Source of the DNA: a virus
Length of the DNA stretch: 40,073 nucleotides
Virus record (IMG/VR): IMGVR_UViG_3300046360_000073
Location: 1 to 40,073 of that record
Reading direction: 5' to 3' (one strand)
The notes under the pieces are model-generated. The model did not search any database. It had not been told where the DNA came from and worked only from the letters and a program-made list of their open reading frames with translations. This document shows, one piece after another, positions 3,355 to 34,972 of the stretch (positions are counted from its first letter, which is position 1; every line of letters starts with the position of its first letter). A program made the position numbers and the translations under genes.

Positions 3355-4950
3355 ATGATGATGACTCCAGGTGGCACCCAGATACCAGTCAAGATAGTAG
3401 GAAGCTCAATCTTCGGACGGCATCCTATTATCTCCGATGAGCGCACTTGGAATCTCTTTATATCCGATGAGTGGCTGATTAACTTCGCCGGATATAATCA
3501 GGCTGTCGATATATTACCTCTTCTAAATGAAGGTCGAGGCCTATTCCATTCTACTCGGGGTAATTTCATGCTGGCAGTTATTGCAGCTAACGTCTATCGA
3601 ATTAATTCTAATCTAGGATTTACATTCCTCTTCAGTCTGGATTCCAGTACTGGCGAGGTCTTCATGGATGAGAATCTCAGCTCGCAGATAGTGATTGTGG
3701 ATGGCACATCTATCGGATATATCTATAATTACACGACTGATACATTTGGCCTCATAGACTATGACTTCGGTGCCGGAGGAGTATCATTCATTCCGAATTA
3801 CGTCACTTACCATAATACCTATTTCATCTTCGGCAATGCGGCTCAAGACCCATCGGGTTCAAACTGGTTCGTCTATAAGACAGGATTCAATCCCACAAGC
3901 TTAGCCGACCCATTGAAGCTCGTATGGGTACAGACATTAGCGCTTCAAACTAAGCCTGACTTTGCTAAGGCTGTAATTAGAATTCCATCTCATGGTAATA
4001 ATATTTTGGTGCTTGGAACCACAGTAGGAGAGATTTGGGCGAATGTGGCAGGACTCCAGATTTACCAGAGGCAATCCTCTATCAACTTAGACTATGGTGT
4101 AGTATCTGTCTCGACCATTGCGGCTTCGGATGATATGGTCGCATGGCTTGGCCAGAATGAGAAGTCGAGTAAATCTATCATGGTTATGATGGGAGGCAGG
4201 GCAGAGAGGTTATCCACGGATGGCATCGATTACCTATTGAGCCGGGTGATACATCCAGACAAATCTACGGCTATGTTCTACCGTCAGGATGGGCATGTAT
4301 TCTATATCTTAAGCTTCATCCATGCAGATGATAACTTCAGCATAATGCATGACTTCACCACATCAAAGTTCTATGATATTACGGACTGGGACTTCACCTA
4401 TCATCCAGCGAGACAGATGGCCTTCTTCAATAATGAGGTTTACTTCGTATCATTGAAGCAGGGTAGTATTATGCGGCTTAGCAGTGACATCACTAGTATC
4501 TCCACAGATTTGCAGAATAATTATGAGATTCCCAGAATCAGAAAGACCGATACATATAGGCTTCCAGCAAGCGAGAGATATATCATCAATCAATTCGGCT
4601 TCACTATCGAGAATGGTGTGGAGCAGGATATAGACTTCCAGTTTGAGTGCGATGGTCACATCTTGGGTGAAATGAGTGGCGCAATCATGTATAGCGAGGA
4701 TGACCTTCCACTATTACTTGAGGGGGGTAGCTGCCAGATATACCGTCCTAGGATAGATGTTAACTTCTCGAAGAACGGTGGGCATACCTACGGCAATTCA
4801 GTTCCTTACTTCATGCATGCTACGGGTCAGTATAAGAATCAACCTAGGTTTAACCAGCTTGGTGAGGCGAATCAGATTACCTGTCAGATGAAATTTTGGG
4901 GATTCGGAGCGGTGGCGATTGCAGATGGATTCTATGAGGTGCGTCAATGA
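3355..4950 (+). CDS. Packaged-DNA stabilisation / tail hub protein, P22 gp10-like
   Basis: 531 residues, beginning with a segment containing GGTQIPVKIVGSSIFGRHPI. This 'pathway, then node' start (VKIVGSSxFGR, then a SxERTWNLFISD-like stretch) is characteristic of gp10-like proteins, which form the hexameric hub under gp4. The rest is beta-rich, consistent with a propeller-like fold. It starts one base after the preceding stop. P22 gp10 is shorter (472), so an extra C-terminal region is likely. Confidence 0.72.
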   Translation: MMMTPGGTQIPVKIVGSSIFGRHPIISDERTWNLFISDEWLINFAGYNQAVDILPLLNEGRGLFHSTRGNFMLAVIAANVYRINSNLGFTFLFSLDSSTGEVFMDENLSSQIVIVDGTSIGYIYNYTTDTFGLIDYDFGAGGVSFIPNYVTYHNTYFIFGNAAQDPSGSNWFVYKTGFNPTSLADPLKLVWVQTLALQTKPDFAKAVIRIPSHGNNILVLGTTVGEIWANVAGLQIYQRQSSINLDYGVVSVSTIAASDDMVAWLGQNEKSSKSIMVMMGGRAERLSTDGIDYLLSRVIHPDKSTAMFYRQDGHVFYILSFIHADDNFSIMHDFTTSKFYDITDWDFTYHPARQMAFFNNEVYFVSLKQGSIMRLSSDITSISTDLQNNYEIPRIRKTDTYRLPASERYIINQFGFTIENGVEQDIDFQFECDGHILGEMSGAIMYSEDDLPLLLEGGSCQIYRPRIDVNFSKNGGHTYGNSVPYFMHATGQYKNQPRFNQLGEANQITCQMKFWGFGAVAIADGFYEVRQ

Positions 4951-30532: not shown

Positions 30533-30605
30533 GGCCTATAGCAGTCTAGCGGTTGGGGACTTACCTGTACCCGATTGGCGCAGCGGTTAACCCTATAGGC
30601 CACCA
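30533..30605 (+). ncRNA. tRNA-like element ending in CCA
   Basis: GGCCTAT (30533-30539) and ATAGGCC (30595-30601) form a perfect 7-bp helix followed by A-CCA; total length 73 including CCA, exactly tRNA size. A D-arm-like hairpin AGTC/GACT with GG in its loop lies at 30543-30561. No canonical T arm or anticodon stem is visible. It could be a degenerate tRNA or a tRNA mimic. Confidence 0.4.
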
Positions 30606-30628: not shown

Positions 30629-30721
30629 GTGGTTGCGGCATGGAGTTCAGGCAGCCTAGAGCTAGTACTGCTTTCATAAGCTAGAAAGGTGAAGCCGGAG
30701 GTGCAACTCCTCCCAACCATG
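30629..30721 (+). ncRNA. tRNA-like element with perfect T arm
   Basis: GTGGTTG (30629-30635) pairs with CAACCAT (30714-30720; one G-T). Directly before the latter is GGAGG-TGCAACT-CCTCC, a 5-bp stem with a 7-base loop in which only the second base departs from the TTCRANY T-loop. Size (about 93) fits a long-variable-arm tRNA. AGAGC-TAGTACT-GCTTT could be the anticodon arm but lacks U33. An alternative 7-bp closing helix is GGCATGG/CCATGCC. Confidence 0.45.
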
Positions 30722-30739
30722 CCTATTAAGGACAGAGGA

Positions 30740-32455: not shown

Positions 32456-33060
32456 GCGTATATAAGTCAAGTTACTCCGATGAGGAATTGTGGTTCTGGT
32501 ATTGTCAAGTTGAAGCATGTGAAGGTTCCAAGAGTATGCATAGCAAGTATGCAGAGGCGAATGGCTTGGACAAGTATAAATTCGCCTTCATGAAGTATAG
32601 GTTTCATTACAAGAAGTATACTAATCCAGAAGAATATTATCGGGTTCTTCCCATCGGTCAGGCTTATATTAATTCAGATCTTAGTAAACCCAAGTTCCTA
32701 AATAAGTATGCGTATGATATTCAGACAAGTATCCTTACCGCAGTCGGTTCGCATGTGAATCATCTGAATATTATAGAGCGCATCAAGCGCGAGAAGGGAT
32801 TGGCCTTGGATGATGAGACACCTATTCCGCCTCCTGCGCCTATACAATCTGAACCAGATTCTAAAGGGATGTCTTTCTATCAGGTGCCATCATCTAAAGC
32901 TATTGCTGAGCATGTTGAGCTAGAACCCGATCATGCCGAGATTCTCCAGAAGCAGAATGAGATTGAGATTACTATTAATCAGGGTGTGAAGGTAATTGTA
33001 TCGCCCCATATCGATTCTATGAAGATTATTAAGATTATTAATTTACTAAAGGACTTATGA
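32452..33060 (+). CDS. IS66 Orf1 (TnpA)-like protein
   Basis: 202 residues. The N-terminal part (SYSDEELWFWYCQVEACEGS, then HSKYAEANGLDKYKFAFMKY) has the look of a helix-turn-helix of the IS66 Orf1 type. The C-terminal IEITINQGVKVIVSPHIDSM followed by IKIINLLKDL matches the closing 'IEI-L-NGV-V-V---VD---L---L--L' of IS66 Orf1. A Pro-rich linker joins them. It overlaps the Orf2-like gene by four bases, the same order as in IS66. The overall match is weaker than for Orf2. Confidence 0.62.
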   Translation: MSVYKSSYSDEELWFWYCQVEACEGSKSMHSKYAEANGLDKYKFAFMKYRFHYKKYTNPEEYYRVLPIGQAYINSDLSKPKFLNKYAYDIQTSILTAVGSHVNHLNIIERIKREKGLALDDETPIPPPAPIQSEPDSKGMSFYQVPSSKAIAEHVELEPDHAEILQKQNEIEITINQGVKVIVSPHIDSMKIIKIINLLKDL

Positions 33061-33419
33061 TGTTAATTCCGTATGAGAATAAGAATATCTTTATCGCGAC
33101 AAAGCCCACTGACTTTAGAATGTCTATAGATGGTTTGGCGAATTTCATTCAGCGAGAGAAGAACGCGCATCTCCACGATGGCAGTATATACGTCTTCTAT
33201 AATAAGCATCGGGATAAAATCAAGTGTCTCTTCTGGGATAGGAATGGTTTCGTGCTGTATTATAAGCGGCTAGATAAATGTAAGTTCAAGCTGAAAGATC
33301 GGTTGCATGAGATTGAGAGTATGACGGCTGAGGAATTGGAGGTTCTTCTCTCAGGATTTGAGCTTCAGAATGCAGAGAGAAAAGAATGTAAGGGTATATT
33401 GCTGGAGCATAAGAGATGA
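33057..33419 (+). CDS. IS66 Orf2 (TnpB)-like protein
   Basis: 120 residues. IPYENKNIFIATKPTDFRMS, then IDGLANFIQRE, GSIYVFYNKHRDKIKCLFWD, GFVLYYKRLDKCKF and LTAEELEVLLSGFEL track the IS66 Orf2 family closely ('TD-RKG-DGLA-LV', 'G-LFVFR-RR-DRIK-L-WD--G--L-YKRLE-G-F'). The protein is full length and undamaged. No IS66 transposase (TnpC, DDE) or terminal repeats accompany it, so it has probably been recruited by the phage. Its normal biochemical role in IS66 is not settled. Confidence 0.82.
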   Translation: MMLIPYENKNIFIATKPTDFRMSIDGLANFIQREKNAHLHDGSIYVFYNKHRDKIKCLFWDRNGFVLYYKRLDKCKFKLKDRLHEIESMTAEELEVLLSGFELQNAERKECKGILLEHKR

Positions 33420-33604: not shown

Positions 33605-33810
33605 CTACTGTACTGTGCAGCATATTAACTTTTGGTCTATCATTGAGCGTCCTGAGTGGGTGCGTCAGCATATACCTATTAGGGAAATCATTTGGCAGAA
33701 TTCCTTTACTAGAGGCGAGACTTACTTTGGTAGAACTGCGCCTACTACGGTTCGTTCAAGAGCATGATGGTAGCCAGACTTGCTATCCTAAAGGGACTCT
33801 AGATAGTTAG
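33601..33810 (+). CDS. Small membrane protein with LSGC motif
   Basis: 69 residues. A hydrophobic N-terminus (VLCSILTFGLSLSVLSGCVS) contains LSGC, formally a lipobox, but there is no positive charge before it, so a membrane anchor is as likely. A basic/Leu-rich helix (LTLVELRLLRFVQEH) follows. It could be a spanin-like or membrane accessory protein; that is only a suggestion. It is the last gene before the structured RNA region. Confidence 0.55.
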   Translation: MTTVLCSILTFGLSLSVLSGCVSIYLLGKSFGRIPLLEARLTLVELRLLRFVQEHDGSQTCYPKGTLDS

Positions 33811-33822
33811 CTTAAACTTAAG

Positions 33823-33828
33823 TATAAT
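33823..33828 (+). promoter_or_regulatory. -10 element before the structured RNA region
   Basis: TATAAT in AAGTATAATTC, 13 bases after the last stop codon and just before the structured region. No strong -35 stands at the right distance, so an activated or weak promoter. Confidence 0.4.
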
Positions 33829-33834
33829 TCTTAT

Positions 33835-34031
33835 GCGTGTCGCTTCTTGTCGAGCGGTTCCATTGTAGCAGCCCTCTACAGCGCTAATGGGCACTTACTT
33901 AGATAAGTGCGGCTGTAAAAGCAGATAGTACTTTCAAGGCCTGAGCTATATTCTGTGAAGTCCGAGACCTGGCCACGAGTTGCGGTGTGAAACTTCACCT
34001 AAGCTGAGATGCTTACACTTATCACCATTTT
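33835..34031 (+). ncRNA. Structured RNA with pseudoknot and a CCA-ended, closed element
   Basis: CCATT/AATGG (33860-33864, 33886-33890) encloses hairpin GTAG-CAGCCCT-CTAC, whose loop CAGCC can pair with GGCTG at 33911-33915, a pseudoknot. GATAAGTG (33902-33909) pairs perfectly with CACTTATC (34016-34023), which is followed directly by ACCA. Stacked on that helix with no gap is TAAGC-TGAGAT-GCTTA (34000-34015), and GTGAAGT/ACTTCAC (33955-33961, 33992-33998) lies one base further in. This is a tRNA-like plan in a 126-nt element. A local hairpin GCACTTA/TAAGTGC competes with the closing helix. Confidence 0.6.
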
Positions 34032-34122
34032 AGCGGGATATTTTGGCTGACGATACTTGCGCACGATAAGCTCACGATGAGTCATATGCTCCTCAGGATA
34101 GCAGGGAAAATAGGCCACCAAT
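34032..34122 (+). ncRNA. tRNA-sized element between ACCA ends (degenerate tRNA?)
   Basis: This 89-nt block starts AGCGGGATATTTT, the same as the 5' end of the CAT tRNA at 34202, and ends ATAGGCCACCA two bases before tRNA-Asn. TATTTT (34039-34044) can pair with AAAATA (34107-34112). The end ATAGGCCACCA also occurs at 30595-30605. It occupies a slot of a tRNA array but has no normal cloverleaf. Confidence 0.45.
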
Positions 34123-34197
34123 TCCGAGGTAGTTCAGAGGTAGAACGGAAGACTGTTAATCTTTATGTCGAAGGTTCGACTCCTTCCCTCGGAGCCA
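34123..34197 (+). tRNA. tRNA-Asn(GTT), CCA encoded
   Basis: A fully canonical cloverleaf: acceptor TCCGAGG/CCTCGGA, D arm GTTC/GAAC, anticodon stem GAAGA/TCTTT with loop CTGTTAA (anticodon GTT), T arm GAAGG-TTCGACT-CCTTC, discriminator G and encoded CCA (34195-34197). Confidence 0.97.
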
Positions 34198-34201
34198 TTT
34201 T

Positions 34202-34276
34202 AGCGGGATATTTCAATGGTAGAAAGCTGGTTTCATACGCCAGATGTCCTAGGTTCGAATCCTAGTCCCGCACCCA
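34202..34276 (+). tRNA. tRNA with CAT anticodon (Met or Ile2), CCA encoded
   Basis: Acceptor AGCGGGA/TCCCGCA (A1-A72 unpaired), D arm TTTC/GAAA, anticodon stem CTGGT/GCCAG with loop TTCATAC (anticodon CAT), T arm CTAGG-TTCGAAT-CCTAG, then C and CCA. It lacks the three G-C pairs of initiator tRNA, so it is an elongator Met or, if C34 is modified to lysidine, an AUA-reading Ile tRNA. The open 1-72 pair is unusual outside initiators. Confidence 0.92.
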
Positions 34277-34560
34277 GAATTCTACAACTGCAGAAGGTAG
34301 GATGGTGCGCTATCAGCATCTGAATAGAATCAACTGATACCGTAATGGATGAGGTCAATGTTCTATAGATAGCAGGCACTGGAGTGCAGGCATGTACTTT
34401 AGAGGGCGGTGAAAGTCCGCCACCAGAATTCAATCTACCTAGGTAAGGGTTGAAAGGTGAATCCCCACCATCCATAAGTAGAGGCTGTGGAACGTCTTGA
34501 GGGGCTGCAAGGTCGGCAGTACTAGAGATTGGGGTCGGTGAAAGCCCGATATAATTATAG
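34277..34560 (+). ncRNA. Structured RNA with T-loop hairpins, 3' of the tRNAs
   Basis: No gene in 290 bases. Long-range helices: GAATTCT/AGAATTC (34277-34283, 34425-34431) and GGATGGTG/CACCATCC (34300-34307, 34466-34473); these two cross, so they form a pseudoknot or alternative folds. Hairpins: TATCAG/CTGATA (34311-34339 region), GGCGG-TGAAAGT-CCGCC (34405-34421) and GTCGG-TGAAAGC-CCGAT (34534-34550). The two 7-base loops fit the T-loop motif (U...A reverse-Hoogsteen). It begins directly at the CCA of the second tRNA. Confidence 0.6.
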
Positions 34561-34567
34561 GACTTAA

Positions 34568-34972
34568 ATGACAGATATATTCGTATTCGGAAGTAACCTG
34601 ATGGGCATCCATGGTGCTGGAGCTGCTCGTTATGCGAATCTTCATCATGGAGCAGTTATGGGGAGAGGAATAGGTCTTGAAGGAACTTCCTATGCTATCC
34701 CGACTAAGGCTCATCCATTTAGAACCCTACCACTCTTCGATATTAATAAGTATGTGGCTGATTTCCTAATCTGCGCTAAGTTATCTCCAGAATACACTTA
34801 CTTAGTAACCAAGATTGGCTGCGGACTTGCCGGATATACGCCTTCAGATATTGCCCCAATGTTCCATCTCGTGAAGCATTTAAATAATGTTAAGCTCCCC
34901 AAGGAATTCTTCGAATATCTCCCTCAAATAGATTTTAACCCCAACATGGTCGCAACTTTCCCCAACTTCTAG
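34568..34972 (+). CDS. Macro-domain-like protein (A1S_2505-type phage family)
   Basis: 134 residues. MTDIFVFGSNLMGIHGAGAA, then HHGAVMGRGIGLEGTSYAIP, and VTKIGCGLAGY define a family common in phages that resembles macro domains: the GSN-L-G-HG-GAA loop and the GCGLAGY loop would hold ADP-ribose or a related nucleotide. It could act in anti-defence by clearing ADP-ribose signals or modifications, which is inference. It starts directly after the structured RNA region and stands alone before the terminase operon. Confidence 0.78.
   Translation: MTDIFVFGSNLMGIHGAGAARYANLHHGAVMGRGIGLEGTSYAIPTKAHPFRTLPLFDINKYVADFLICAKLSPEYTYLVTKIGCGLAGYTPSDIAPMFHLVKHLNNVKLPKEFFEYLPQIDFNPNMVATFPNF

Follow-up and report, generated by a model that had tools for sequence, protein, structure and literature searches.

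A phage tRNA cluster that probably carries two uncatalogued families of small structured RNA, one built on a tRNA body and one with a self-complementary loop

The stretch of DNA analyzed here (the window) is a 40,073-base IMG/VR virus record, and the locus of interest lies between a short ORF that ends at 33810 and an ORF that starts at 34568. No convincing protein gene is present in the intervening region (33811–34567), in agreement with the initial annotation; the ORFs listed there are short and overlap the tRNAs. ARAGORN, and Rfam at its gathering score, identify tRNA-Asn (GTT; 34123–34197, plus strand, 70.7 bits against the Rfam tRNA model) and tRNA-Met (CAT; 34202–34276, plus strand, 58.7 bits) as the only genes in this gap, and the remaining Rfam matches at E ≤ 5 are at chance level or overlap the tRNAs. 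Just upstream of the cluster, the ORF at 33057–33416 matches IS66 Orf2/TnpB (Pfam PF05717, 6.8e-31; PHROG transposase). The initial annotation had interpreted the region as a single structured RNA of ∼730 nt surrounding the two tRNAs. The entire region folds with an energy no better than that of shuffled sequence (z = −0.04), and its many apparent helices are therefore not evidence on their own; homologs must decide. Helices, pseudoknots and T-loop hairpins do covary in related phages, and the initial annotation thus withstood its own refutation test, a lack of covarying helices in homologs. This bears out the view of structured RNA beside phage tRNAs and the plausibility of a new class, but the homologs carry the parts separately, reordered or without tRNAs, and the proposed size and unity of the RNA were abandoned.

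As far as the sequences tell, 33902–34560 is a row of separate structured RNA genes tiled nearly end to end, in the order RNA-A, a probable tRNA-like element, tRNA-Asn, tRNA-Met, RNA-B copy 1, and RNA-B copy 2. No conserved counterpart was found for the leader of ∼90 bases that precedes them (33811–33901). The probable tRNA-like element (TGGCTGACGATACT...GGGAAAATAGGCCACCA; 34044–34120, plus strand) is a weak assignment, its two termini recurring in a single relative (L063, near 3540–3630). An exact 19-base repeat, CCATTTTAGCGGGATATTT, occurs at 34025–34043 and 34195–34213, such that the start of tRNA-Met recurs directly after RNA-A; this arrangement suggests that a cassette bearing tRNA-Asn may have been inserted between RNA-A and tRNA-Met.

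Relatives of the window were gathered through the large terminase subunit (49 loci). A blast comparison of the region with these relatives showed that ∼125 bases near 33902–34027 are retained at 80–88% identity in six of them, where they are flanked by unrelated sequence and occupy differing places relative to the tRNAs. Pattern scans and a covariance model (R1) brought the total for this element, RNA-A, to 16 copies on 15 contigs, the window included; it occurs in eight of the 49 phage records searched with R1 (48 obtained via terminase and one via a pattern). Contigs L066 and L067 and contigs of Nostoc and Ruminococcus fit the RNA-A pattern without a model match and were rejected. A scan of genome contigs found no RNA-A, and annotated phages and plasmids yielded no convincing homolog of RNA-A or of RNA-B.

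RNA-A (33902–34027, plus strand) is 126 nt long, and its structure was drawn by hand from the alignment, after which pairs were counted against it. The 5′ strand of an acceptor-like stem P1, GATAAGTG (33902–33909), pairs with 34016–34023; five of the eight pairs change on both sides, and 100% of cells are paired in the first nine sequences. The D-arm-like hairpin that follows (33912–33922; 33912–33914 with 33920–33922) has two of three pairs that change on both sides and an A-C mismatch at the third pair in five of nine sequences. The segment GGCC (33938–33941) forms a pseudoknot with 33971–33974 in the P4 loop, with compensatory changes at all four pairs and 98% of cells paired (14 sequences, MAFFT). 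The P3/P4 arm (33955–33998) is composed of the pairings 33955–33961/33992–33998, 33962–33964/33983–33985, and 33966–33968/33979–33981; seven of its 13 pairs show changes in both partners, every cell is paired (100%), and a G-U pair in P4 is invariant (14/14). A T-arm-like hairpin of 5 bp with the loop TGAGAT (34000–34015; three of five pairs change on both sides) abuts P1, whose 3′ strand CACTTATC leads into ACCA (together 34016–34027). Most homologs end in NCCA, and their T-like loops read TGNRAT, TGCAATT, or TTCGATT.

Over the first nine RNA-A sequences 98.0% of cells pair and 17 of the 33 pairs vary in both partners; none of 500 shuffles reaches any of these measures, and slid controls give 33–41%. 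The widest MAFFT alignment holds 14 of the 16 copies. For some homologs of both families the alignment came from models of their relatives, a procedure that favors the structure; the nine- and 14-sequence counts for RNA-A and the eight-sequence count for RNA-B given below are free of this bias. E-values from the purpose-built models R1 and R2 are rough. RNAalifold, run without a given structure, recovers the D-like hairpin for the most part, along with P1, P3, and the T-like hairpin; it places other pairs at the position of P4 and is a method that cannot display the pseudoknot. The minimum-energy fold of the window RNA-A alone, a procedure whose scope likewise excludes pseudoknots, replaces P3 and P4 with other pairings.

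By these features RNA-A is built as a tRNA body in which a conserved pseudoknotted domain takes the place of the anticodon arm. P1 and the T-like hairpin covary, and NCCA is present in most copies; the window RNA-A has no anticodon arm and is called neither a tRNA nor a tmRNA by ARAGORN or Rfam, its T-loop usually departs from the tRNA consensus across the family, and its D-like stem is short. The copy in L093 (minus strand, 6044–5910) is more canonical: a D-arm CCGC-AGTTGGGTTA-GCGG is found around the same central domain, accompanied by the T-arm GTAGG-TTCGATT-CCTAC and ACCA, and the copy scores 22.7 bits against the Rfam tRNA model (cut-off 29), its alignment having 68 inserted bases at the anticodon. 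The central domain is conserved at 91%, as against 66% and 71% for the arms, and therefore looks like the functional part of RNA-A. This difference is what would be expected if the tRNA body were a replaceable chassis and the domain the working part. A descriptor scan for sequences with an acceptor stem, T-arm, and CCA that are not called as tRNAs gave 22 matches on the tRNA strand and two on the opposite strand; several other recurring types are among them, and RNA-A therefore belongs to a wider set.

Several further RNA-like elements were observed in the window and its relatives. At 30533–30605 the window has a tRNA-sized element closed by GGCCTATAG/CTATAGGCC and followed by ACCA, and its homologs in L024 (∼531–599) and L018 (645–713) keep the core while the closing stem has changed in a compensatory manner; at 30629–30724 lies a tRNA-like element that is not called as a tRNA (GTGGTTG...GGAGG-TGCAACT-CCTCC-CAACCAT). 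An element of 122–123 nt, nearly identical in two phages (L002, 1845–1970; L030, 3020–3146), has a canonical acceptor stem (CGGGGTA/TACCCCG), a T-arm, and ACCA around a middle that is not tRNA. Recurring elements of very different inner length are found at L009 4921–5118, L011 4598–4701, L035 2549–2709, and L039 1847–2049. They share the T-arm loop TGCAATT and are closed by GACAATC/GATTGTC (ACAATCG/CGATTGT in L011), and the L009 element encloses a tRNA-like sequence. L027 (2068–2151, directly after RNA-A) and L029 (∼4806–4887) have in common an element GACAATC...GATTGTC-GCCA. A structured stretch, GAAGAGCGCCTCATT ... GAGGTAGGTGC with a T-loop hairpin, is common to L027 (2155–2375), L029 (4990–5205), and L031 (1055–1165), its closing stem varying by phage. 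Two unrelated phage contigs, L051 (1551–1712) and L055 (4420–4482), share GGGCGTAGGCTGCGGCGGTGAAAGTCCGCCGCCCCATGAGCAGCC, which is followed in L051 by a type II hammerhead ribozyme. When the T-loop hairpin GGCGGTGAAAGTCCGCC was used as a scan pattern, the contigs recovered gave no RNA-A or RNA-B matches where searched, and an Rfam scan of these contigs detected only a hammerhead.

The second family, RNA-B, is 105–150 nt in length. Blast gave the first, weak matches to it in L031 and L029; inspection by eye added L004, L093, and L095, and patterns together with a second covariance model (R2) brought the census to 19 R2 matches, 18 of them distinct, plus a divergent copy in the window. R2 matches in G005/G006 (15 bits) were discarded, as they lack the RNA-B signature motifs. 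Copy 2 in the window (34425–34554, plus strand; 106.5 bits, in the R2 training set) has 18 further matches. It opens with hairpin H1 (34429–34454), whose loop contains the palindrome CCTAGG (34438–34443), a candidate self-kissing loop. CCCC (34463–34466) pairs with GGGG (34501–34504) in a pseudoknot that was absent from the model and for which four of five pairs show compensatory changes among 18 sequences. Hairpin H3 (CTGC-AAGGTCG-GCAG, 34505–34519) follows, with both sides changing at four of four pairs and 100% of cells paired, and then the T-loop hairpin H4 (GTCGG-TGAAAGC-CCGAT, 34534–34550), in which three of five pairs change on both sides. The first eight RNA-B sequences have 93.9% of cells paired and 14 of 20 pairs changing on both sides; for the 18 sequences fitted to the model the values are 95.7% and 20 of 25, and G-U pairs are numerous. 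Copy 1 (34276–34425, plus strand) is divergent; R2, which was not trained on it, matches it weakly at 18 bits (E 0.02 over the 40-kb record). It begins on the last base of tRNA-Met and has a hairpin with the loop palindrome CTGCAG (34288–34293), a T-loop hairpin (34405–34421), and an ACCA end that meets the start of copy 2.

The twister-sister ribozyme (Rfam RF02681) gives sub-threshold scores of 15.9 and 21.4 bits against a gathering score of 34, the higher of which falls in the 3′ part of RNA-B (GCAAGG...GGTGAAAGCCC). Because that strand forms H3, in which all pairs covary, as is not expected from the twister-sister fold, this assignment was rejected. The T-loop hairpins of the two RNA-B copies bear out the T-loop-like hairpins of the initial annotation. 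It had also drawn a pseudoknot between CAGCC and GGCTG, a pairing that comparison does not support: GGCTG falls within the D-like hairpin of RNA-A, for which covariation favors another pairing, and CAGCC lies in the unconserved leader. Its expectation of at least one pseudoknot nevertheless holds, with two others supported (33938–33941/33971–33974 and 34463–34466/34501–34504), and the latter may be one of the two crossing helices that it placed 3′ of the tRNAs.

The H1 loop hexamer is a palindrome in 16 of 18 distinct RNA-B sequences. CCTAGG is present in most and CCATGG in three, and CGTACG, CCCGGG, and GCTAGC also occur; the loops of L108 (CCCAGG) and L134/L135 are not palindromic. Shuffling the loops with their composition kept gives a chance product of ∼2e-6 for six distinct palindromes, a rough figure given that the sequences are related and the boundaries were set by hand. 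Adjacent nucleotides within one loop cannot pair with themselves, and changes that preserve the palindrome therefore point to pairing between two molecules, an argument that has likewise been made from palindrome covariation for OLE and GOLLD (PMC12286853). RNA-B thus probably pairs with a copy of itself via this loop. The two copies in the window differ in their palindromes, and each would pair with its own kind.

RNA-A and RNA-B are carried by partly different sets of phages. Both are present in at least the window, L031, L063, L093, L095, and L125; several records of 37–42 kb lack RNA-A, RNA-B, or both, and many records are fragmentary, such that absence is uncertain for the short ones. The two RNAs are located before, between, or after tRNAs, or distant from any called tRNA, their orientation is constant with that of neighboring tRNAs, and several RNA-B copies start at the terminal CCA of a tRNA or RNA-A. 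Where detected, terminases of the carriers are 54–89% and portals 38–44% identical to those of the window. RNA-A and RNA-B thus appear to behave as optional cargo, with which some close relatives are provided and others are not. In L013, the gene directly after RNA-A (653–1864) encodes an RtcB RNA ligase (Pfam RtcB, E 6e-117).

Other explanations for the locus were weighed against this body of data. A single ornate RNA of ∼730 nt in the manner of GOLLD or ROOL, with the tRNAs lying inside it, would fit the location, the pseudoknots, and the covarying palindromic loop, and GOLLD can indeed hold tRNAs in a linker (PMC12286853). The membership in these classes that the initial annotation had considered finds no Rfam match, either at the gathering threshold or at E ≤ 5; a single large RNA with conserved order is not what the relatives show, since RNA-A and RNA-B are found apart, reordered, and without tRNAs, and the whole region has the unremarkable fold energy given above. 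We consider this reading largely refuted. tRNA genes in decay, or tRNAs split by small introns, would account for the tRNA-like ends, the CCA, the L093 copy that fits the tRNA model apart from its anticodon insert, and the fluidity of phage tRNA clusters to which the exact repeat at 34025 and 34195 attests. However, decay would erode the central domain of RNA-A, which is the best conserved part and covaries; copies other than that of L093 have no conserved anticodon stem around it; and its ∼75 nt would be little for a self-splicing intron of group I or II, none of which was found by Rfam. Tattered or interrupted tRNAs are accordingly a very unlikely source of these helices. We judge it equally improbable that RNA-A is a translation device akin to tmRNA, in which a tRNA body and pseudoknots serve ribosome rescue. 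The CCA end and T-like arm are in its favor, but ARAGORN makes no call, Rfam returns no tmRNA match at E ≤ 5, the length of the central domain varies by one base (L011, L062), which speaks against a conserved tag reading frame, and every copy has C-G or U-A as the third pair of P1, so that no G3-U70-like alanine signal is present.

The position of the unit, 0.5–1.2 kb upstream of the gene for the large terminase subunit, and the probable self-pairing of RNA-B raise the idea of a packaging RNA like that of phi29, which would form rings by loop-loop contacts and serve the neighboring terminase. RNA-B is missing, though, from most relatives with near-identical terminases, the distance to the terminase gene is ∼4 kb in L031 and ∼8 kb in G034, Rfam pRNA is unmatched at E ≤ 5, and the loops of phi29 pRNA are, to our knowledge, not palindromic; a packaging role is highly improbable. 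Scarcely more credible is that the hairpins act as DNA, as recombination or integration sites or as mobile cassettes. Cassettes do shift position between phages, DNA sites often feature palindromes and hairpins, and a transposase-like ORF is nearby (33057–33416), but the invariant G-U pair in P4 of RNA-A (14/14), the many G-U pairs of RNA-B, the T-loop sequences, and the constant orientation relative to neighboring tRNAs all argue for function as RNA.

We therefore return to separate RNA genes and consider it likely that the locus is a phage tRNA-cluster transcription unit with two tRNAs and members of two uncatalogued RNA families, one of scaffold type and one self-pairing, carried as optional cargo. 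The structures and the patchy spread of both families are well supported by the homologs, as is the tRNA-like build of RNA-A. The unit would be transcribed together with its tRNAs, and tRNA enzymes would release the pieces. Its tRNA body probably makes RNA-A a substrate for tRNA-processing enzymes, by which it would be cut, finished, and stabilized; RNA-A would then persist as a tRNA-shaped, non-decoding molecule that presents its central domain to do the work, and RNA-B would form a homodimer. The likeliest role would be to bind and divert a host factor involved in tRNA or ribosome handling, such as a tRNA-cutting defense enzyme, the target being a guess. A role in conflict over tRNAs fits because of the patchy presence of the RNAs, their position in tRNA clusters, and the neighboring RtcB, and phage tRNAs have been proposed to counter tRNA-cutting defenses (PMC10264068). 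We nonetheless put this counter-defense reading forward tentatively, as one that may well prove wrong. An equally speculative extension, to which we attach a similarly low probability, is that the tRNA body could be a general phage chassis that bears non-decoding RNAs as interchangeable cargo beside tRNAs, RNA-repair genes, and a self-dimerizing RNA in an RNA-based counter-defense island.

The recurrent designs seen here are a tRNA body that bears another domain and a compact RNA that possibly dimerizes via an evolving palindrome. Both families have enough homologs to fix their structures by covariation, which opens the way to defined transcripts, loops, and mutants. RNA-A and its kin escape tRNA callers, and more such RNAs are likely hidden in phage tRNA clusters.

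Neither RNA-A nor RNA-B matches a family in Rfam 15, and the two appear to be previously uncatalogued small RNA families, with an earlier description possible given that the literature was covered in part. tmRNA possesses a tRNA-like domain and pseudoknots that stand in for the anticodon arm, and RNA-A shares this arrangement; it is unlike tmRNA in its length of 126 nt, its lack of a conserved frame, the retention of a D-like stem, and the absence of an Rfam or ARAGORN call. GOLLD and ROOL are found in phages near tRNA islands and engage in intermolecular kissing loops (PMC12286853). Their likeness to the RNAs described here is one of kind only, in the location in a tRNA cluster and in the palindromic RNA-B loop that covaries as a palindrome; they are far larger, many GOLLD members exceeding 800 nt.

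The closest known kind is represented by rnaC (species 1) and rnaD (species 2) of T4, likewise small RNAs in a phage tRNA cluster, of 139 and 119 nt, respectively; a canonical T-arm is present in rnaC, and the 3′ end of rnaD is ACCA. Both are stable, transcribed RNAs of unknown role (PMC3014915, PMC9697503), and the roles of other non-tRNA RNAs in phage tRNA clusters have also remained unknown. Homology is not indicated: on the T4 tRNA cluster the best R1 score is 9.5 bits (E 0.43) and the best R2 score is 11.3 bits, outside rnaC and rnaD. What is shared is the setting: in the window and in several relatives, too, a phage tRNA cluster houses a small RNA gene that is not a tRNA. In design, RNA-A corresponds to the engineered tRNA scaffold, in which the acceptor stem and the D and T arms are kept and the anticodon arm is exchanged for another structured RNA for the sake of processing and stability (PMC3753655). 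The scaffold is man-made, whereas RNA-A may be its natural version, evolving in phages.
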